Origin: Cognatiluteimonas sedimenti
GTDB lineage: Bacteria; Pseudomonadota; Gammaproteobacteria; Xanthomonadales; Xanthomonadaceae
Direction: 5' to 3'
NCBI RefSeq assembly: GCF_022808325.1
Contig: NZ_JALGCL010000001.1
Location: 973,780-1,037,779 of the forward strand
Length of the DNA stretch: 64,000 nucleotides
In this document: piece by piece, positions 1 through 8,889 of the stretch
How the letters are laid out: the number at the start of each line of letters is the position of its first letter
Position numbering within the stretch: position 1 is the first letter of the stretch
Made by a program: the position numbers and the translations under genes
Notes under the pieces: generated by a model
What the model was told of the DNA's origin: nothing
What the model saw: the letters and a program-made list of their open reading frames with translations, nothing else
The model's database searches: none

Positions 1-570
1 CGCGGGGATGTTCTGCCCGCCGATCTCCCACAGCATCAGCCAGGCCAGCAGGAGCAGCAGCAATCCCGGCGACGGCTCGGGACGGACCACGAACACCGCC
101 GCGATCGGGCCGGCCGACTTCACCAGCCCGCTGACCAGGGTGCGCCACCAGGTCACCTTCAGCAGCTTGCAGTACAGCGCCTCGAGCACCGTGGCGGCGA
201 GCACGACCAGCACCAGCCGGGGATTGAGCAGCCACGCGCCGACCAGGGTCAGCGCATACCAGAATCCGAACCAGGCCAGCGCGCCGCGCAGGCTGACCAG
301 GTTCCGGGCCAAGGGGTAGCGCATCGGCGACGCTTCCACCGAGTAGCCCGGCCTGGTGGTGGCGACGGCCACCTTGGCCTTGTCGTCGTTGACGCCGAGC
401 AGGTCGTTGAGCGCGTAGATGGCGGTGTAGCCGGCAAGGCCGGTGAACAGGCACAACCCCAGCACCTGCCAGCCCGGGAACCCGCCGAGCCACAACAGCG
501 CGACGAAGCCCGGCATCGCCATGTCGAGCACGCCGTGGGTGCTGCGCGACAGCGCGAGGAAGCGCTTCAC
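1..570 (-). CDS. UbiA-family prenyltransferase, EboC-like (3' end outside window)
   Basis: Reading leftward from a GTG at 570 gives an open frame with no stop to base 1, about 190 codons, so the gene is truncated by the window edge. It is strongly hydrophobic with several membrane segments. Around residues 55-63 it carries NDLLGVNDD, which matches the first Asp-rich prenyl-diphosphate motif of the UbiA superfamily except that the middle Asp is Gly. The GTG overlaps the stop of the methyltransferase gene (GTGA), implying translational coupling. UbiA proteins transfer polyprenyl groups in the membrane. Next to a sugar-phosphate cyclase and a TIM-barrel isomerase it resembles EboC of ebo/edb clusters. 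The family call is firm; substrate and the Ebo assignment are inference. Confidence 0.8.
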   Translation of the reverse strand, partial: MKRFLALSRSTHGVLDMAMPGFVALLWLGGFPGWQVLGLCLFTGLAGYTAIYALNDLLGVNDDKAKVAVATTRPGYSVEASPMRYPLARNLVSLRGALAWFGFWYALTLVGAWLLNPRLVLVVLAATVLEALYCKLLKVTWWRTLVSGLVKSAGPIAAVFVVRPEPSPGLLLLLLAWLMLWEIGGQNIPA

Positions 571-1286
571 GCGCCCGCCCCCGGCTTGGCGAAGCAGGCC
601 ATGTAGTTGATGTCCTCGCGGTCGCGGGCGACGCGGAAAGAGCGCGTGATCGGGTTGTACATCAGGCTGTCGACGGCGATGAACTGCAGCCCGCAGGCGC
701 CGGCCCAGGCGCGCATCTCCCCGGGCCGGATCAGCTTGCGATAGCTGTGGGTGCCGCGCGGCAGCAGGCCGAGGATGTATTCGCCGGCCACGATCGCGAA
801 CGCGAACGCCTTCAGGTTGCGGTTGATGGTGGAGAAGAACACCTGCCCGCCGGGCTTGAGCAGCCGCGCGCAGGCTTCGATCACCCGGGCCGGCTCGGGC
901 ACGTGCTCCAGCATTTCCATGCAGGTCACCGCGTCGAAGCCGGCGGGCTCCTGCTGCGCCAGGTCTTCCACGCGGCTGTAGCGGTAGTCGATGTCCAGGC
1001 CGTTGTCGGCGGCGTGCTCGCGCGCGATCTCCAGCGACATCTGCGACAGGTCGATGCCGGTGACGCGGGCGCCGCGCCGCTGCAGCGCCTCGGCCAGGAT
1101 GCCGCCGCCGCAGCCCACGTCCAGCATCCGCGGGCGTGGCGTCGTGACGCGGTCCATGATGAAGCCGGTGCGCAAGGGATTGATGACGTGCAACTGGCCC
1201 ATCTTGCCGTGCGGGTCCCACCACAGTTGCGCAAGCCGGTTGAAATGGGCGATTTCCGCCGCGTCAATGTTGGTCGTTTCGGTCAT
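567..1286 (-). CDS. ubiG: UbiG-type SAM-dependent O-methyltransferase
   Basis: This 239-residue class I methyltransferase has the SAM-binding motif LDVGCGGG at residues 55-62, the WWDPHGK and HVINPLR stretches near the N terminus, CMEMLEHV in the middle, and a C-terminal YNPITRSF, all typical of UbiG (3-demethylubiquinol and polyprenyl-hydroxyphenyl O-methyltransferase of ubiquinone synthesis). Its ATG at 1286 lies inside the end of the cyclase gene (23-bp overlap) and its stop overlaps the prenyltransferase start. It is therefore locked into the 1-4 kb operon rather than sitting with ubiquinone genes. It may be the cell's only UbiG or a paralogue recruited by the cluster; the sequence alone cannot decide. 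Confidence 0.85.
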   Translation of the reverse strand: MTETTNIDAAEIAHFNRLAQLWWDPHGKMGQLHVINPLRTGFIMDRVTTPRPRMLDVGCGGGILAEALQRRGARVTGIDLSQMSLEIAREHAADNGLDIDYRYSRVEDLAQQEPAGFDAVTCMEMLEHVPEPARVIEACARLLKPGGQVFFSTINRNLKAFAFAIVAGEYILGLLPRGTHSYRKLIRPGEMRAWAGACGLQFIAVDSLMYNPITRSFRVARDREDINYMACFAKPGAGA

Positions 1287-2415
1287 TGGCAGCAGCCATC
1301 CCCTGGTTGAGCGCAGTGATCGCCGACGCGACCTCCTGCCGGTTGATGTCGTTGGCGAACACGCAGGCGCCCAGCCCGCGGGGCAGCGGCACGCGTTGCA
1401 GGCCATTGCGGTGTTCCACCCGGTCCAGCAGCGAGTGCCAGACCAGGTCGACGTCCAGCAGCGCGAAGTCCGGTTCGATGCCCAGCCGCTCGACCAGCCC
1501 GAAGATGCGCGCGGTTTCCGCGGCCGACAGCAGCCCGCGCGCGCGCGCAACCAGGCACGACACCAGGATGTCCAGCAGCACCGCCTCGCCATGCAGAAGG
1601 TGCTCGCCATGGCGCGCCTCCAGCCCGTAGCTGAAGGTGTGGCCGAAATCGACCCGGCGCTCGAGCTCGTCCTCGAACAGGTTCGGCTGCAGTTCCTCCA
1701 GCATGCCGGCGATGGCGCGGTCGAGGATCTCGCCGCCGGCCGCGTCCTGGAACGCCGCCGCCACGCTGGCGGCGCCGCAGGCTTCCAACTGCATGAACAG
1801 CGCGACGTCGCGGATCACCGCCAGCTTGATGATCTCGCACACGCCGTTGAGCAGGTGCCGCCGCGGCAGCGTGCGCAGCAGCGTGTGGTCTAGCAATACC
1901 CGGCACGGTGGCTCGAAGCTGCCGAGCCTGTTCTTGTTGTCGTTGAAGTTGATCCCGGTCTTGATCCCGACCGAGGCGTCGACGTAGCCCATCAGCGTGG
2001 TCGGCACCTTGATGTGCGGCACGCTGCGCCGATAGCTGCCCGCGACGAAGCCGACCACGTCGGTCAGCACACCGCCGCCGATGGCGATGATCGGCTCGTC
2101 GCGACGGTGGATCGGGAAGGCATCCAGGTTGCGCACCAGGTCGAGCCAGGCATCGGCGGTCTTGCTGGCCTCGCCGCCGGCGAAGCGCACGATCCGGGCG
2201 CTGATGCCATGCGCGGCGAAGTAGGCGTCGATGCGCTGGCCGTGGTGGCGCGCGATCTGCTCGTCCACCACCACGAAGCGCCGCCCGTCCCGCACGCGCC
2301 CGATCGACAGCAGCGCCGGATTGCCCGGATCGAACAGGTCCGGTGCCTTGACCAGGTCGTATTCGATCCGGCGCTGGTGGCTGACCCGCCACGCGGCGCC
2401 ACCGGCCACGCTCAC
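1264..2415 (-). CDS. Sugar-phosphate cyclase (3-dehydroquinate-synthase superfamily, EboD/EEVS-like)
   Basis: This 383-residue protein has the AroB fold signature: the NAD-binding GGG at residues 113-115 (IGGGVLTDV), PTTLMGYVDASVG, and metal-ligand positions Glu194 (GVCEIIK), His259 (DFGHTFS) and His275 (LLHGEAV). Catalytic Lys152 and Lys161-Asn162-Arg163 are present. KTGINF with KNRLGSF and PNLFEDE look closer to the sedoheptulose-7-phosphate cyclases (2-epi-5-epi-valiolone or desmethyl-4-deoxygadusol synthases) and to EboD than to true AroB. It likely makes a cyclitol from a C7 sugar phosphate. The start is a GTG at 2415 that overlaps the luxS stop as GTGA. It is unlikely to be the shikimate-pathway AroB because of its context and sequence; the exact product is unknown. 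Confidence 0.82.
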   Translation of the reverse strand: MSVAGGAAWRVSHQRRIEYDLVKAPDLFDPGNPALLSIGRVRDGRRFVVVDEQIARHHGQRIDAYFAAHGISARIVRFAGGEASKTADAWLDLVRNLDAFPIHRRDEPIIAIGGGVLTDVVGFVAGSYRRSVPHIKVPTTLMGYVDASVGIKTGINFNDNKNRLGSFEPPCRVLLDHTLLRTLPRRHLLNGVCEIIKLAVIRDVALFMQLEACGAASVAAAFQDAAGGEILDRAIAGMLEELQPNLFEDELERRVDFGHTFSYGLEARHGEHLLHGEAVLLDILVSCLVARARGLLSAAETARIFGLVERLGIEPDFALLDVDLVWHSLLDRVEHRNGLQRVPLPRGLGACVFANDINRQEVASAITALNQGMAAANDRNDQH

Positions 2416-2894
2416 GACACGTTTCCCCACTGCGCGCGGCGCGCCAGCACTTCGCCGGCGATCGCACGGGCGCTTGCCAGGTCGTGGTCGCGGTAATGCC
2501 CGCACTGGTCGATGCGCACATAGGGAACGCTTTCCGACTGCAGCACGCCTTCCAGCGTCGCCGCCAGGACATCGTCGATCACCGCGCGGCGGCCTTCATT
2601 GAGCAGCACCAGGTAGAAGCCGGTGCGGCAGCCCATCACGCCCACGGAAACGAAGTGTCGCGGCAGCAGGCGCTGGAACCCCTCCAGCAGGAAGTGTTCC
2701 AGCGAGTGCAATGGCGCAACCGCCAGGCATTCGCCGGCGTTGGGCCGGCGCAGGCGCAGGTCGATGCTGTAGACGACATCGCCGGCCGCGCCCGTGTGCG
2801 CCGCGCGCAGCTTGATGCTGGGTGCCCGCAACCGACGATGGTCCAGTTCCCCGATCGTCGCCGGGTCCCAGCCCAGCGCCTGCAGGTCGGTCAC
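2412..2894 (-). CDS. luxS: LuxS-family S-ribosylhomocysteine lyase
   Basis: The 160-residue product aligns over its whole length with LuxS, which cleaves S-ribosylhomocysteine to homocysteine and the AI-2 precursor DPD. All hallmark residues are visible: His19 in LDHRRLRAP, Arg47 in DLRLRRPN, the metal and catalytic motif HSLEH (His63, Glu66, His67), Cys89 in MGCRTGFY, and Cys131 in QCGHY. The start is a GTG at 2894, 31 bp after the isomerase gene; the stop overlaps the GTG of the cyclase gene. The first 14 residues are a short extension compared with typical LuxS. Finding LuxS here is odd: as far as is known, Xanthomonadaceae recycle S-adenosylhomocysteine with SahH. No pfs gene is in the window. 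It may feed a product to the operon or recycle its methyltransferase by-product. Confidence 0.87.
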   Translation of the reverse strand: MTDLQALGWDPATIGELDHRRLRAPSIKLRAAHTGAAGDVVYSIDLRLRRPNAGECLAVAPLHSLEHFLLEGFQRLLPRHFVSVGVMGCRTGFYLVLLNEGRRAVIDDVLAATLEGVLQSESVPYVRIDQCGHYRDHDLASARAIAGEVLARRAQWGNVS

Positions 2895-2925
2895 GGTCGC
2901 CCCTTGCCGGTTGCCGCGGCGTCGT

Positions 2926-4179
2926 TCATGCCGGCCGCACCGACGCGCCGGTGAGCGGCGCCAGGTGGCGATAGCTGTCGACAAGCGCCTGTTGCCAGGA
3001 CGCGACATGGTGGTACAGCTCGACCGAGCCGTAGCCGTGGAAGCCATTCTCGGTCAGCGCCTTGAAGCTGGCTTCGAGGTCCAGCGTGCCCTCGCCCGGG
3101 ATCTCGTGGAAATGCACGATGCCGGTGAGCGTGTTGGCCACCATCGCATTGACCAGCGCCGGGCCGCGCGCGCCGCGCAGCCACGCGATGATCGGCCATG
3201 CGCGCTCCAGTACGTGGAACGACAGGCCTGGCACCGAGATCAGGTAGGTGAAGATCTCGTCGTCCAGCGGCGAGGCGCCGACAGGCAGGGAGGCGTAGTC
3301 GATCGAGCGCACCACGCCCTGCACGCCCGCCTGTGCCAGCAGCGCGTCGATCCGTTGCCGGCGGCGCCGGTCGGGTGCCTGGTCGCGGAAATACAGCGGG
3401 TGGCGCCGGTCGACCAGCAGGTAGTCGGCCGTGTCGGCGAAGTACACCAGGGTGCTGGCGGCCTGCAGGTCGAAGGCCAGGTCCTCGGCATCGGCGACGA
3501 TCCTGAGGTTGTAACCAGCGCGCGCGTCGGAAATGTGCAGGTAACGCGCATGCGGCGCGGCTTCGCCCAGCGCGGCGAGATGGTCGCGCTCGGAACAGTA
3601 GGCGTGGCACAGGTCGATGTGCAGCCGGAAGCGCGGCGAGCCGACCGCGTCGATCAGCGCCAGGGCCTGCGCCATGGTTTCGATGTACATGCCCGGCTCC
3701 GGCTCGATCAGCAGGGTGATGTCCTCGTCGTCGCGGATTTCGCGCAGGCACTCGTGGATCGAGTCCGCCAGCAGCTCGCCCGGATCCGCCGCCGCGTTGC
3801 GCACGTGCTCGTCGCGGAGGAAACCGCTGCCGAAGGTCACCAGCGGCGAGCCCAGGCGCCGCGCCACGCGGATGCCGCGCTTGACCAGGTCGATGCGGCG
3901 CTTGCGTCCGGCCAGGTCCAGTGTGATCAGCGAGGGTTCGTGCGGCCGCGACGGCGTGAAGAAGTGCGAGGCGGTGGCCACGCAGGCCGGGGCTATGCCC
4001 GTCGCGTGGAGCCGCGCGCGGACGGCGGCCAGGGCGTCGCCGTCGATCTCGAAGGGATTGAACTGGCGCCGGTGGAAGGCGATCTCCACGCCGGCATATC
4101 CGGCTGCCGCGACCGCATCGATCGCGTCCAGGAAATCAAGGCCGGTGAGGCCGAAGGTGCTGTAGCTGAGTTGGATCAT
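2926..4179 (-). CDS. TIM-barrel sugar phosphate isomerase/epimerase, EboE-like
   Basis: This is the first gene of the leftward operon, 417 residues from an ATG at 4179. The N-terminal part is a xylose-isomerase-like TIM barrel with acidic and histidine metal-site candidates: Glu159 in LLIEPEPG, Asp189 and His192 in HIDLCH, and His215 in YLHISD. An additional C-terminal third follows and ends near VELYHH. Such proteins isomerise or epimerise sugar phosphates or cyclitols. A long TIM-barrel protein next to a DHQS-like cyclase and a UbiA protein is the EboE-EboD-EboC combination of ebo clusters (called edb in pseudomonads), where EboE is annotated as a metabolite-traffic protein. The fold is sure; the Ebo role is inferred. 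Confidence 0.78.
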   Translation of the reverse strand: MIQLSYSTFGLTGLDFLDAIDAVAAAGYAGVEIAFHRRQFNPFEIDGDALAAVRARLHATGIAPACVATASHFFTPSRPHEPSLITLDLAGRKRRIDLVKRGIRVARRLGSPLVTFGSGFLRDEHVRNAAADPGELLADSIHECLREIRDDEDITLLIEPEPGMYIETMAQALALIDAVGSPRFRLHIDLCHAYCSERDHLAALGEAAPHARYLHISDARAGYNLRIVADAEDLAFDLQAASTLVYFADTADYLLVDRRHPLYFRDQAPDRRRRQRIDALLAQAGVQGVVRSIDYASLPVGASPLDDEIFTYLISVPGLSFHVLERAWPIIAWLRGARGPALVNAMVANTLTGIVHFHEIPGEGTLDLEASFKALTENGFHGYGSVELYHHVASWQQALVDSYRHLAPLTGASVRPA

Positions 4180-4578
4180 GCCGGGATGCCGTGCTCGTCG
4201 AACGCCGGGGACACACAGGGCTGCCGCGTCGATCCTCAGGGATCCCCGGTGCGTGGTCGTCCGTAGCCGGCGCAGGCGCGTGCCATGACTCATCCGTTGA
4301 CGTGGTCGCCGCAGTCTGGACAAGCGGTGCGGCGGGCGCCTTGATTCAGGTCAACAGCCGGGTCGCGAGGGCATCGCTGGCCCGTCCGGCTGGGCGCCGA
4401 ACCCTGCATCCCGCCCCTGTCGCGGGCCTGCAGGCCGACCCGTGCCCCGCACCTGGCCCGAACGGGGCTTCACCTGCCCTGCATGCGCACCACGCGTGTC
4501 CCCCGGGTGAAAACCGAAGTCACGCGCCCGATGGTCCAATAGGTTTTTCAACCATCGGCCTGTATCCGCCATCACGCC
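4180..4578. other. Divergent intergenic region between the Ebo-like operon and the KaiC-like gene
   Basis: About 400 bp with no convincing gene on either strand. It must hold the promoter of the leftward operon (start 4179) and of the rightward KaiC-like gene (start 4579). The only recognisable element is an FNR/Anr-type dyad at 4341-4354, listed separately. A slightly AT-richer patch around 4535-4550 precedes the KaiC-like gene and may hold its promoter, but no convincing -35/-10 pair was found. Confidence 0.5.
4341..4354. promoter_or_regulatory. FNR/Anr-type box (one mismatch)
   Basis: The sequence TTGATTCAGGTCAA matches the FNR/Anr consensus TTGAT-N4-ATCAA at nine of ten positions, and the same single departure (G for A) occurs in known Anr/Dnr sites. 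It lies in the divergent region, 162 bp upstream of the TIM-barrel gene and 225 bp upstream of the KaiC-like gene. No well-placed -10 box was found beside it, so which gene it would control, if any, is open. Confidence 0.35.
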
Positions 4579-6096
4579 ATGGACACACCCCAAGAAGCGC
4601 TCAACCCACCGCCCGTCGCGACCGGCATCGCCGGCCTGGACACCGTCCTCGAGGGCGGGTTGACGGCGAACCGGCTGTACCTGCTCGAAGGCCTGCCGGG
4701 CGCGGGCAAGACCACCATGGCGCTGCAGTTCCTGCGCGAGGGCGTCGAGCGCGGGGAAAGCGTGCTGTACGTGACGCTCTCGGAAACCGAGGCGGAACTG
4801 CGCGAAGTCGCCGCCTCGCACGGCTGGACGCTCGACGGCGTGCACATCAACGAGCTGTTCCCGATGGGCGACCAGCTCGACCCCGATGAGCAGTACACGA
4901 TGTTCCACCCGTCCGAGGTCGAGCTCGGCAAGGTGACGCTGGCCATCCTCGCCGAGTTCGAGCGGCTCAAGCCGCAGCGCGTGGTGTTCGACTCCCTGTC
5001 CGAGATCCGGCTGCTGGCGGGGTCGCTGCTGCGCTTCCGGCGCCAGATCCTCGCGCTCAAGCAGTACTTCGCCGGCCGCAACGCGACCGTGCTGCTGCTC
5101 GACGAAAGCCACCAGCTCGAACAGGGCCTCAATGCGCACACGATCGTGCACGGCGTGGTTTCCCTGGACCAGCTTCGCCCGGAATTCGGCGGCGATCGCC
5201 GCCGCCTGCGGGTGATGAAGATGCGAGGCCGTCCGTTCCACAGCGGCTTCCACGACTATGAAATCCTGACCGGCGGAGTGGTGGTTTTCCCGCGCCTGGT
5301 CGCCGCCGACCATCGTCGCGAGCCGGAGGTTGGCACGCTTCACAGCGGGCTGGACGCCCTGGATGCATTGCTGGGCGGCGGCATCGATCGCGGCACGAGC
5401 ACCTTGTTGCTGGGCGCGGCGGGCACGGGCAAATCCACATTGGCCATGCATTTCGTGATGCAGGCCGCCGAACAGGGCGAGCGCTCCGCCGTGTTCCTGT
5501 TCGAGGAAAGCGTGCATGCCATGCGCAAGCGTTCGAGCGGGCTGGGGCTGGACCTGGATGCCCGCATCGACGACGGCACCGTCATGATCCAGTCGGTGGA
5601 TCCGAGCGAGCTGTCGCCGGGCGAATTCTTCCATATCGTGCGCGAAGCGGTGGAGCAGAAGCAGGCGCGGATCGTCGTCATCGACAGCCTCAATGGCTAC
5701 CTCAACGCGATGCCGGGCGAGCGCTTCCTGGTCACCCAGCTGCACGAACTGCTCAGCTACCTGGGGCAGATGGGAGTGTCGTCGTTCCTGCTCAACGCGC
5801 AGCAGGGGATGATCGGCAGCATGAGCAGCACCCTGGACGTCAGCTACCTGGCCGACACCGTCGTGCTGCTGCGGTATTTCGAGGCCAATGCCACGGTCCG
5901 CACCGCCATTTCCGTGATGAAGAGGCGCACCGGGGCGCACGAGCGCACGCTGCGCGAGATGGTCATCGGCAACACGGGCATCGAGATCGGCGAGCCGCTG
6001 CGCAACTTCCGTGGCGTCCTTACCGGCGTGCCGCAGGACGTGGCCGATCCCCCCGCCGCCGCCGGCGCGGTCTTCACCGGCAGCCTCGGGGCGTGA
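4579..6096 (+). CDS. KaiC-like two-domain RecA-superfamily ATPase
   Basis: The 505-residue product has two tandem RecA/KaiC domains, each with a Walker A motif: GLPGAGKTT near residues 38-46 and GAAGTGKST near 277-285. Catalytic-glutamate regions TLSETEAEL and LFEES follow each one. The C-terminal domain has VSYLADTVVLLRYFE; by position Ser422 matches the phosphorylated Ser of cyanobacterial KaiC, while the neighbouring phospho-Thr is replaced by Tyr423. No kaiA or kaiB is nearby. The gene is followed after 4 bp by a hybrid histidine kinase, so the pair probably forms a signalling unit, as in other non-clock KaiC-like/kinase pairs. The signal sensed is unknown. Confidence 0.88.
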   Translation: MDTPQEALNPPPVATGIAGLDTVLEGGLTANRLYLLEGLPGAGKTTMALQFLREGVERGESVLYVTLSETEAELREVAASHGWTLDGVHINELFPMGDQLDPDEQYTMFHPSEVELGKVTLAILAEFERLKPQRVVFDSLSEIRLLAGSLLRFRRQILALKQYFAGRNATVLLLDESHQLEQGLNAHTIVHGVVSLDQLRPEFGGDRRRLRVMKMRGRPFHSGFHDYEILTGGVVVFPRLVAADHRREPEVGTLHSGLDALDALLGGGIDRGTSTLLLGAAGTGKSTLAMHFVMQAAEQGERSAVFLFEESVHAMRKRSSGLGLDLDARIDDGTVMIQSVDPSELSPGEFFHIVREAVEQKQARIVVIDSLNGYLNAMPGERFLVTQLHELLSYLGQMGVSSFLLNAQQGMIGSMSSTLDVSYLADTVVLLRYFEANATVRTAISVMKRRTGAHERTLREMVIGNTGIEIGEPLRNFRGVLTGVPQDVADPPAAAGAVFTGSLGA

Positions 6097-6100
6097 CGCA

Positions 6101-7744
6101 TTGAACGGCGCCGATCTGCCGTCGGTGAAGAAGCGCGTACTCCTGCTGCTGGGTACGGCGCGGGACAGCCAGTTGACGCGCGAGTTGCTGCGCGGCAATG
6201 GATTCGACAGCCAGGTATGCGCCAGCACGCAACAGCTGCGGCAGGAGATCGATGCCGGCGCCGGCGCCGTGCTGGTGGCCGAGGAATGCCTGGACCAGGG
6301 CGCGCACGACGCGCTGCTGCAAGCGCTGGACGCGCAACCGGCATGGTCGGACCTGCCGATCCTGGTGCTGGCACGCCCGGGCGCGGATTCGGTGACCGTG
6401 TTCGAGGCCATCGCGCTGCTCGGCAACGTGACCGTGCTGGAGCGGCCCCTGCGCATCGCGGGCCTGGTCACCGTCGTGCGCACCGCGTTGCGCGCGCGCT
6501 TCCGCCAGTACCAGATCCAGGCAAACCTGAAGGGCCTCGAGGAAGGCCGCGACGCGGAGGCCAGGGCGGCGCAGCAGAAGGACGAGTTCCTGGCGATGCT
6601 GGCCCACGAGCTGCGCAACCCGCTGGCGCCGATCAGGACCGCGCTGTTCGTGCTGGGGATGGACGACAGCGATGCCGAGCGGCGGGCGACGCTGCGGCAA
6701 ATGATGGAACGCCAGGTCGACCACCTGGTGCGGCTGGTCGACGACCTGCTGGAAAGCTCGCGGCTCTCGCGCGGCAAGATCGAGCTGCAGCGCGAGCCGA
6801 TCGACCTCAAGGATGCCCTGCGGCGCGCGGTCGAACTCAGCCGCACGCAGATCGATGCGGCGGAATGCACCCTGGAACTGCACGTGGACGCCGGGCCGCT
6901 GCCGATCGACGCCGACCCGATCAGGATCGCGCAGGTCTTCAGCAACCTGCTCAACAATGCCGCGCGCTACGGCCGGCGCGGCGGCACGATCCAGTTGCAT
7001 GCGCATCGCAGCGGCGACGGCGAGGCGCTGGCACGCGTGGTCGACGACGGCATCGGCATCGACAGCGAGACGCTGCCGCACGTCTTCGACCTGTTCACCC
7101 AGGGCAAGCGCGAGGCCAGCCATGCGCAGGGCGGGCTCGGGATCGGCCTGGCGCTGGTCCGCTCGCTGGTGGGCCTGCATGGCGGCCGGGTGCGCGCCAG
7201 CAGCGGGGGCACTGGCCTGGGCGCCGAATTCTCCGTGTGGCTGCCGTTGTCGGACCTGGCGCAGCAACCATCCGCGCCGTTGCCGCAGGCGAAGACGGCG
7301 GTTGCCGAAGGCATCCACGTGCTGGTCGTCGACGACAACAAGGATGCGGCCAACGCACTGGCGATCATGCTGGGTGCCGAAGGCATCCAGCACCGGGTCG
7401 TCCACGACGGAGCGGGCGCTCTCGCCGTGGCGGACGCCTTCCTGCCGGACATCGTGCTGCTGGACATCGGCATGCCGGGAATGGACGGCTACGAAGTCGC
7501 GCGCAGGTTGCGCAGCAACCCGGACAACGCAAACGCGCTGCTGATCGCATTGACCGGGTGGAGCAACGAGCAGGACCACGTGCGCAGCCGCGCCGCCGGC
7601 TTCGACCACCACCTGCGCAAGCCCGCCGACGTCGACACCCTGATGGAGCTGCTGGCATCGGTCGCGCCTGCGGATCGCCCGCGCAAGCAGTCGCCACCTG
7701 CGAAGGCCACTACGCCGGCCGCGTCGCCATCGTCCTTGCGCTAG
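6101..7744 (+). CDS. Hybrid sensor histidine kinase/response regulator
   Basis: About 547 residues. Residues 1-130 look like a receiver-type pseudo-receiver without an obvious phospho-Asp. A coiled linker, a HisKA domain (phospho-acceptor His169 in AHELRNPLAP), an HATPase domain (NLLNNAARYG, DDGIGID, GGLGIGLAL) and a C-terminal receiver with HVLVVDD and Asp455 in LLDIGMPGMDGYE follow. There is no membrane segment, so it is cytoplasmic. The best start is a TTG at 6101, 4 bp after the KaiC-like stop; a GTG at 6125 is the alternative. Tight spacing predicts co-transcription and a shared pathway in which the KaiC-like ATPase modulates the kinase. No output protein is adjacent. Confidence 0.88.
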   Translation: MNGADLPSVKKRVLLLLGTARDSQLTRELLRGNGFDSQVCASTQQLRQEIDAGAGAVLVAEECLDQGAHDALLQALDAQPAWSDLPILVLARPGADSVTVFEAIALLGNVTVLERPLRIAGLVTVVRTALRARFRQYQIQANLKGLEEGRDAEARAAQQKDEFLAMLAHELRNPLAPIRTALFVLGMDDSDAERRATLRQMMERQVDHLVRLVDDLLESSRLSRGKIELQREPIDLKDALRRAVELSRTQIDAAECTLELHVDAGPLPIDADPIRIAQVFSNLLNNAARYGRRGGTIQLHAHRSGDGEALARVVDDGIGIDSETLPHVFDLFTQGKREASHAQGGLGIGLALVRSLVGLHGGRVRASSGGTGLGAEFSVWLPLSDLAQQPSAPLPQAKTAVAEGIHVLVVDDNKDAANALAIMLGAEGIQHRVVHDGAGALAVADAFLPDIVLLDIGMPGMDGYEVARRLRSNPDNANALLIALTGWSNEQDHVRSRAAGFDHHLRKPADVDTLMELLASVAPADRPRKQSPPAKATTPAASPSSLR

Positions 7745-8115: not shown

Positions 8116-8889
8116 ATGCCGTTGCGCACCGTCACCGCCACCCGCTATGTCACGCCGTTGCGCGAAGGCGGCTCGATGCCGGCGATCGTCGAGGCCGACG
8201 ACGACGGCATGTACGTGCTCAAGTTCCGCGGCGCGGGCCAGGGCCCGCGGGCGCTGGTGGCGGAACTGGTCTCGGGCGGGATCGCCCGCGCGCTCGGGCT
8301 GCCGGTGCCGGAAATCGTGCTGCTGGAGCTCGACCCCGGGCTGGCGCGCACCGAGGCCGATCCGGAGATCCAGGAACTGATCAAGGCCAGCGCGGGCCTC
8401 AACCTGGCGCTCGACTACCTTCCCGGCGCGGTCAATTTCGATCCGGTGGCCGAGCAGCCGGCGCCGGCACTGGCGTCGGAGATCGTCTGGTTCGACGCCT
8501 TCACCAGCAACGTAGACCGCACCGCGCGCAACCCCAACCTGATGGTCTGGCACGGGCGCCTGATCCTGATCGACCATGGCGCATCGCTGTATTTCCACCA
8601 TGGCTGGCAGGGTGATGCGGACGGCGCCGGCAAGCCGTTCCCGCTGATCCGCGAGCACGTGCTGCTGCGCTGGGCCAGCGAACTGGCCGCGGCGGACGCG
8701 CGCCTGGCCGCATTGCTGCCGCCGCAACGGCTGGCGGCGATCGTGGACGAGATCCCAGATGCCTGGCTGCTGGGCCACGACGCCTTTGGCACGCCCGCGC
8801 AACAGCGCGCCGCGTACGCGAACTACCTGCAACAGCGCCTGGCGCTGCCGCACGCCTTCGTCGAGGAGGCCGAACGTGCACGCGCCTGA
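8116..8889 (+). CDS. HipA-like kinase family protein
   Basis: The 257-residue product has a HipA-like kinase fold core: an N-terminal strand region with YVLKFRGAGQGPRAL, a region with WFDAFTSNVDRTARNPNL resembling the catalytic D-x-N loop, and LILIDHGASLYFHH resembling the metal-binding Asp loop. It is shorter than toxin HipA, and no HipB antitoxin is adjacent. The next gene overlaps it by 14 bp and encodes a DUF3037 protein, a pairing common in proteobacteria. Probably a cytoplasmic phosphotransferase of unknown target rather than a classical persistence toxin. Confidence 0.78.
   Translation: MPLRTVTATRYVTPLREGGSMPAIVEADDDGMYVLKFRGAGQGPRALVAELVSGGIARALGLPVPEIVLLELDPGLARTEADPEIQELIKASAGLNLALDYLPGAVNFDPVAEQPAPALASEIVWFDAFTSNVDRTARNPNLMVWHGRLILIDHGASLYFHHGWQGDADGAGKPFPLIREHVLLRWASELAAADARLAALLPPQRLAAIVDEIPDAWLLGHDAFGTPAQQRAAYANYLQQRLALPHAFVEEAERARA

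Follow-up and report, generated by a model that had tools for sequence, protein, structure and literature searches.

A LuxS-fold protein with altered substrate-binding residues in a five-gene operon that may direct the synthesis of a prenylated, O-methylated C7 cyclitol metabolite

LuxS, the S-ribosylhomocysteine (SRH) lyase, is commonly regarded as a family with a single reaction and as a marker of autoinducer-2 (AI-2) signalling. Its chemistry comprises two keto-isomerizations followed by a β-elimination (PMC6371041). In a different setting, the Ebo/EDB systems combine a TIM barrel, a sugar-phosphate cyclase and a UbiA-family protein, and their product is presumed to be a prenylated compound of the cyclitol type (PMC5133447, PMC6282210, PMC9235831). 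In Table A1 of PMC8756737, a xylose isomerase-like protein, LuxS, 2-epi-5-epi-valiolone synthase (EEVS), UbiG and UbiA are listed as RJP53741–RJP53745 of a metagenome-assembled genome (MAG), Chloroflexi SURF MAG 42. Here we analyze a set of five minus-strand genes at the left end of a 64,000-nucleotide stretch of the Cognatiluteimonas sedimenti genome (the window; G000:C1:973780–1037779 of a 2.74 Mb genome), which encode, in the order of transcription, a TIM barrel, a LuxS-like protein, a sugar-phosphate cyclase, a UbiG-like methyltransferase and a UbiA-family prenyltransferase. With confidence that is about evenly balanced, we propose that this operon may produce a metabolite with a C7 cyclitol core that is prenylated and O-methylated, and that the LuxS-like protein may be an enzyme of this pathway.

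The LuxS-like gene (window 2412..2894, minus strand, GTG start) encodes a 160-aa protein that matches PF02664 with 103 bits. It also matches 10 NCBIfam LuxS models but remains below the cut-off of each (best 112 versus 208 bits); NCBIfam LuxS models are likewise matched by the other 21 members of the subfamily described below. Its AlphaFold model (predicted local distance difference test score, pLDDT, 94.5) adopts the LuxS fold, and in a structure search with this model all 18 PDB matches under E 0.001 were LuxS, with 18 LuxS chains at E < 1e-10. For a comparison at the residue level, the 22 subfamily members were set against 114 ordinary LuxS proteins from the collected loci and numbered after the Bacillus subtilis enzyme via a PDB alignment. 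His11, Arg39, His54, Glu57, His58, Cys84 and Cys126 are kept in 22/22 members; Cys84, Arg39 and His11 are residues that we take to act in catalysis. The metal ligands are His54, His58 and Cys126 (PMC5029033), and Glu57, Arg65 and Asp78 are described as important in substrate binding (PMC2656534). The subfamily departs from canonical LuxS at several positions: Asp78, present in 114/114 canonical proteins, occurs in none of the 22 members, and the same holds for Lys35, which 110/114 canonical proteins possess, while Arg65 and Pro81 are each found in 5/22 members as against 114/114 canonical sequences. Moreover, position 80 carries Gly or Ala in place of Ser, position 61 is Leu in all members and not Ala, and at the N-terminus the Ser-Phe segment is swapped for a longer one with an invariant Gly-Trp and Gly (GW...G). 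In a LuxS tree that took in 55 of the 114 canonical rows, the 22 members form a single group (support 100/99). As far as aligned residues can show it, the LuxS-like protein thus combines intact metal and catalytic residues with altered substrate-binding residues. As a separate observation, the LuxS of locus L027, recorded as Bacillus subtilis DE0224, is unlike the B. subtilis LuxS in the PDB; this record is possibly misnamed or the gene replaced.

According to the original prediction, LuxS would either supply 4,5-dihydroxy-2,3-pentanedione (DPD) or recycle S-adenosylhomocysteine (SAH). In this explanation the protein is still an SRH lyase, which recycles the SAH released by UbiG or provides DPD, the AI-2 precursor, as a five-carbon block; it can draw on the common fold, on every metal and catalytic residue being kept, on a Pfam LuxS score above gathering and on a methyltransferase in the operon that depends on S-adenosylmethionine, and we consider it improbable. 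LuxS receives its substrate from methylthioadenosine (MTA)/SAH nucleosidase, and as DPD supply and SAH recycling both need SRH, a missing nucleosidase speaks against both: A match to TIGR01704 above the cut-off was present in 0/8 carriers of the operon (8 of 22 were tested) versus 7/14 control genomes. The case for a lost SRH role is weakened by low-scoring matches to the nucleosidase model in 6/8 carriers (best 42 bits, cut-off 74); one of them, a divergent protein of carrier G150 (L099:1117–1797, minus strand), fits SAH nucleosidase models best, though far below their thresholds (65 bits, cut-off 218), and lends the lyase explanation some support. Typing assigned the weak match of the window genome to AMP nucleosidase and that of G088 to DeoD, and the best weak matches in G114 and G041 lie behind a deoB-like frame and are DeoD by eye. 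Of the two nucleosidase-superfamily proteins in the window genome, one is a methylthioinosine phosphorylase and the other an AMP nucleosidase. S-adenosylhomocysteine hydrolase, in turn, was found in 5/5 carriers of the window's family (14/14 when nine relatives are included). Together with the loss of Asp78 and Lys35 in 22/22 members and the retention of LuxS in Desulforadius tongensis, whose genome has no UbiG over the cut-off, these results make a function in SAH recycling or DPD supply unlikely, and this part of the original prediction is not upheld. Judged by its sequence and genomic context, the LuxS-like protein has likely lost the SRH role and would be neither an AI-2 synthase nor a salvage enzyme.

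The subfamily is tied to its neighbours. We collected 22 distinct loci, which is a lower bound because the genome-contig scan gave the best 80 loci and more members may exist. Three of these 80 are members (L007, L008, L009), and the remaining 77 have neither a TIM-barrel nor a cyclase gene nearby and represent ordinary LuxS. A subfamily profile splits cleanly from the latter: Members score at least 216 bits, all other matches at most 158 bits with none in between, and matches up to 158 bits were counted as canonical LuxS. With this profile, members were detected in 4/369 genomes of the window's class, in 12/400 genomes of the phylum of L007 (a Chloroflexota MAG), in 1/299 genomes of the phylum of Desulforadius (Bacillota) and in 1/319 genomes of the window's phylum, the last being the window's own genome again. 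PF02664 itself is present in 5/149 genomes of the window's family, the own genome included, and all five matches lie inside this operon, which is carried by 2/6 listed genomes of the window's genus. Three genomes (G513, G971 and G1149) contain two LuxS-family matches each, the second one in G513 being partial (34 bits).

The complete order TIM barrel, LuxS, cyclase, UbiG and UbiA on the same strand is realized in 20/22 loci, and complete loci occur in the window's family (Xanthomonadaceae), in its class and in Chloroflexota. Of the other two, the contig of L133 begins 75 bp before LuxS, so that a TIM gene could not be visible, and L009 from Desulforadius tongensis (Bacillota) contains a fused TIM-LuxS frame and the cyclase only. 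Homologues of this LuxS gene away from such neighbours, which the original prediction had named as the observation that would speak against it, were looked for and found in 0/22 loci. In the window, the intergenic spacing from the TIM barrel to UbiA is +31, −4, −23 and −4 bp, in agreement with the predicted single operon of five leftward genes that overlap or lie at most 31 bp apart. The cyclase GTG start and the stop of the LuxS-like gene share 4 bp, an overlap that recurs in 16/22 loci. The Pfam matches of all five proteins exceed the gathering score, and the G+C content of the operon (69%) is close to that of the window (70%). Full-length matches to a TIM profile (at least 737 bits) occur in the same 12/400 genomes of the phylum of L007 as the LuxS-like gene; all other matches at E 1e-10 in this phylum score at most 64 bits, and three matches of 45–64 bits in two genomes were regarded as generic TIM barrels and not counted. 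Furthermore, the protein distances of the LuxS-like protein correlate with those of the other four (r 0.83–0.90; 0.83–0.92 across all five). The linkage of these genes is far beyond chance. Among the 25 largest neighbour clusters, no additional conserved gene was seen next to the five: The clusters that recur were judged to consist of shadow frames from within the operon or, in up to six loci, of widespread genes, for example one for an ABC-F ATPase. By gene layout, the five genes are shown to form a complete, self-contained operon. In a plasmid collection, UbiA had no match, the TIM protein gave only partial matches to sugar isomerases, and LuxS was found in 29 records, with at most 38.5% identity among the 15 listed; the cyclase, used as a query, retrieved the S7P cyclases and ebo loci described below.

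In Desulforadius tongensis, the frame L009:8735–10477 stays open between the start of the TIM gene and the stop codon of LuxS and is followed by the cyclase; a separate initiation of LuxS at an ATG shortly upstream is possible. Its genome lacks both a UbiG above the cut-off and a UbiA of the present family. A fusion of TIM barrel and LuxS beside a cyclase, in the absence of UbiG and UbiA, argues that the LuxS-like reaction belongs with the TIM barrel and the cyclase, that is, with ring chemistry and not with methylation.

The cyclase gene (window 1264..2415, minus strand, GTG start; DHQ_synthase 116 bits, DHQS_C 69 bits) would provide the entry into this chemistry. The best PDB match of its product is ValA (4p53, 325 bits), followed by 5tpr (249 bits), which we take to be a desmethyl-4-deoxygadusol synthase (DDGS), and AroB scores at most 140 bits. 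Identity amounts to 36–44% with four plasmid proteins annotated as sedoheptulose 7-phosphate (S7P) cyclase (best 43.8%), to 35% with the dehydroquinate synthase (DHQS)-like protein of a mycosporine-type locus and to 32–33% with EboD. At three alignment sites that separate EEVS from DDGS and DHQS, the operon cyclases read L/D/H in 22/22 cases, as does ValA; the corresponding residues are E/A/T in MysA (a DDGS), V/N/V in AroB and I/D/H in EboD, and the four other S7P cyclases have L/D/H in three cases and L/D/R in one. Fourteen fingerprint sites are described for this cyclase group (PMC4426668), of which these three were compared here. The 22 operon cyclases form one clade (99/100) in a tree in which AroB, MysA and one S7P cyclase have long branches; a split with support of 99/98 places this clade with the S7P cyclases and apart from EboD and AroB. 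By these sequence criteria the operon cyclase is very likely of the EEVS type. Within the clade, seven loci of the window's class (all except L133) cluster inside the Chloroflexota loci with support of 92/90, below the 95 mark; this nesting hints at a transfer between phyla. Another pairing of cyclase and TIM barrel was noticed on plasmids of Agrobacterium vitis and Rhizobium rhizogenes (L180:7932–12889 and L182:5866–9383), on which an S7P cyclase lies near ROK-family and TIM-barrel genes.

The original prediction had equated isomerase, cyclase and UbiA with EboE, EboD and EboC. This identification does not stand: The TIM and UbiA proteins lack a significant match to EboE and EboC, and the cyclase is closer to S7P cyclases. 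As references we used the ebo operons of two Deinococcus plasmid records (L181:6010–11905 and L185:4824–10627), which contain eboD, a short gene that occupies the position of eboA and was taken as EboG after PMC5133447, eboB, eboE, eboC and eboF; both records are typed as non-mobilizable. The EboE model NF035939 recognizes the true EboE with 472 bits (cut-off 250) and gave no match to the TIM protein at E 1e-3, and the comparison of the TIM protein with EboE yielded a best BLASTP E-value of 0.83 and a hhalign probability of 5% (E 0.0075, 28 columns). Likewise, the EboC model NF035940 did not match the UbiA protein at E 1e-3, with the reference EboC itself at 107 bits and thus below the cut-off of 250, and UbiA versus EboC gave a best BLASTP E-value of 0.17 and a hhalign probability of 3% (E 0.015). 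The hhalign alignments of the Ebo proteins are shallow, with two reference sequences each, and stay compatible with a remote kinship within the TIM and UbiA superfamilies. With the EboD-type model PRK06203 the operon cyclase reaches 195 bits (cut-off 333) and the reference EboD 561. The search for eboB and eboF that the original prediction had suggested returned nothing: At E 1e-3, tblastn detected none of EboB, EboC, EboE, EboF and EboG in any of the 22 loci but all five in the control locus L185. Membership in the Ebo group is thus rejected by family models, BLASTP, hhalign, tblastn with a positive control and the cyclase tree. A variant Ebo operon that acquired luxS and a methyltransferase could still appeal to the same three broad superfamilies, to the agreement of EboD and the operon cyclase at two of the three residues compared and to a short IEPEP stretch common to the TIM proteins, which is their sole trace of EboE kinship; against the missing Ebo genes, the failure of NF035939 to recognize the TIM protein and the separation of the two groups in the cyclase tree, we regard such a variant as hardly tenable. 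At the sequence level, the operon and Ebo share superfamilies and are not the same system.

The two genes at the end of the operon encode the tailoring enzymes of the proposed pathway. The UbiG-like O-methyltransferase (window 567..1286, minus strand, 239 aa; Methyltransf_11, 93 bits) passes the NCBIfam UbiG model TIGR01983 with 254 bits (cut-off 103). A second UbiG is present elsewhere in the window genome (G000:C1:93678–94331, 274 bits), and in the five Chloroflexota carriers tested no other UbiG over the cut-off was found. The UbiA-family gene runs on the minus strand from window position 570 to −326 (L002:13454–14350; 298 aa; PF01040, 102 bits), window coordinates being positions in L002, a 20 kb stretch that extends left of the window, minus 13780. 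Hence only its first part (1..570) lies inside the window, and its stop codon, 326 bp left of the edge, marks the end of the operon. The Asp motifs of the UbiA protein are invariant in 21/21 sequences, and its score with the 4-hydroxybenzoate prenyltransferase model TIGR01474 is 30 bits (cut-off 275). A PDB profile search with the UbiA alignment gave no match, and the AlphaFold models agree with the expected folds and do not indicate a substrate.

The TIM-barrel gene (window 2926..4179, minus strand, 417 aa; AP_endonuc_2, 127 bits, Pfam) encodes a barrel of the ketose-3-epimerase/IolI/AsbF type with an insert of about 140 residues (about 220–360) and the invariant residues E159, D189, H192, H215 and E387. 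Its relatives include IolI and AsbF, the profile matches being weak (E 7e-7 for AsbF and 5e-8 for IolI). From these assignments a pathway can be sketched: The cyclase would act on sedoheptulose 7-phosphate and form 2-epi-5-epi-valiolone or a closely related keto-cyclitol. Its enolization, isomerization and dehydration would be the joint task of the TIM barrel and the LuxS-like enzyme. The LuxS chemistry, a metal-assisted ketone migration and a β-elimination, would be put to new use here, with water leaving in place of homocysteine, and it would fit, since keto-isomerization and β-elimination are what the dehydration of a keto-cyclitol needs. The loss of two waters would take 2-epi-5-epi-valiolone (C7H12O6) to C7H8O4, the formula of trihydroxybenzyl alcohol. 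UbiA would then prenylate the ring and UbiG would O-methylate a hydroxyl as in ubiquinone synthesis, resulting in a membrane-bound phenol or quinone; such a phenol would be a fitting substrate for a prenyltransferase of the UbiA type and especially for an O-methyltransferase of the UbiG type. A close parallel would be the shikimate-pathway branch from dehydroquinate via dehydroshikimate to protocatechuate, in which a DHQS-type cyclase is followed by a first dehydration and an AsbF-type barrel serves for the second. In this specific form, a shikimate-independent route in which an EEVS-type cyclase, two dehydrations by a LuxS-fold enzyme and an AsbF-like barrel, and the action of UbiA and UbiG on trihydroxybenzyl alcohol lead to a methoxylated, lipoquinone-like compound, the scheme is tentative and, in our view, rather unlikely to hold. 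That the product is prenylated, methylated and of the cyclitol type, as originally predicted, is the natural reading of the gene set.

Several points weigh against the proposed pathway. The chemistry of all its steps is deduced from the genes and, where the TIM barrel and the LuxS-like protein are concerned, amounts to guesswork based on folds and mechanisms. The residue changes in the LuxS-like protein lower the odds of SRH binding without proving a new substrate, and Arg65 is kept in 5/22 members. The best structural matches of the AlphaFold model of the TIM protein are ketose 3-epimerases and not dehydratases, which in terms of modeled structure would speak for epimerization at least as much as for dehydration; an epimerization without aromatization would be as compatible with the barrel. 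The best models of the UbiA protein, PRK12884 (prenyltransferase) and PRK12882 (geranylgeranylglycerol-phosphate transferase), are far under their cut-offs, and an O-prenylation of a non-aromatic alcohol is possible. In Desulforadius, which lacks the tailoring genes, the product should differ. Some of these points lead to another product, a non-aromatic prenylated and methylated cyclitol, ether- or C-linked, for which the TIM barrel would act as a 2-epi-5-epi-valiolone epimerase and the LuxS-like protein as a keto-isomerase. The proximity of the TIM fold to ketose 3-epimerases and the ether-lipid prenyltransferases among the best sub-threshold models of the UbiA protein argue for it, but the methyltransferase is a full UbiG by score and the known substrates of UbiG are prenylated phenols; we judge this product unlikely, though by no means negligible. 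A further explanation, that the LuxS-like protein acts on another thioether, for instance a thiol adduct of a cyclitol or heptose from which the thiol would be freed by β-elimination, agrees with the kept catalytic set and with a pocket altered for a different thiol. As the operon has no gene for making such an adduct and no further conserved neighbour gene was seen, we hold it to be very improbable.

To the left of UbiA, a 191-aa reading frame without a family match lies on the same strand, and beyond it two genes on the opposite strand, a response regulator and a sensor kinase by eye, follow. On the other side of the operon and divergent to it, Pfam identifies a KaiC-like two-domain ATPase and, after it, a histidine kinase that carries a receiver domain, both at window 4579–7744 (plus strand); the two may form a KaiC-type sensory pair that shares the intergenic region with the operon. 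A HipA-like kinase (PF20613, 68 bits) follows at 8146–8889 (plus strand). A scan of window 3900–4700 for promoters and terminators found nothing, a σ70 consensus being a poor test at 70% G+C.

If the proposed pathway is true, this would be the first natural LuxS with another substrate, as far as searches of the open-licence literature show, and the LuxS family would have a second role in nature, the dehydration or isomerization of a cyclitol. The operon would then define a five-gene pathway to a possibly new lipid-linked, perhaps quinone-like product. There is also a bearing on genome annotation: A survey reports no LuxS in Chloroflexi (PMC5029033), and as all 12 LuxS-profile matches in the 400 genomes of the phylum of L007 belong to the present subfamily, caution would be advisable when AI-2 capacity is inferred from a LuxS match. 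The LuxS and methyltransferase genes within such an operon had been unfamiliar to the original prediction as well, and in the open-licence PMC literature we found no discussion of an embedded LuxS.

Compared with known systems, the locus is closest in content to Chloroflexi SURF MAG 42, for which a table annotates the same five genes next to nirS; the accompanying text, in the parts available to us, does not discuss the operon, its function or its wider occurrence (PMC8756737). With Ebo/EDB it has in common the combination of TIM barrel, sugar-phosphate cyclase and UbiA-family protein; however, its TIM and UbiA families differ, its cyclase is of the EEVS type and not EboD, and instead of EboB, EboF and EboG it has LuxS-like and UbiG-like genes. 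AsbF, a metal-dependent 3-dehydroshikimate dehydratase that converts a keto-carbocycle into a catechol, and IolI are TIM barrels like the operon protein, which differs from them by its large insert and weak sequence match. Relative to the LuxS SRH lyase, the operon protein shares fold, metal and catalytic residues but has lost Asp78, Lys35 and mostly Arg65, has a rebuilt N-terminus and is adjoined by a cyclase in 22/22 loci. Finally, the EEVS-based C7-cyclitol pathways, i.e. those of validamycin (ValA), gadusol and the mycosporines (DDGS with an O-methyltransferase), likewise start from an S7P cyclase and pair a cyclase with an O-methyltransferase, whereas the operon described here dispenses with a kinase, an aminotransferase, MT-Ox and an ATP-grasp enzyme and possesses a prenyltransferase and a LuxS-like enzyme.

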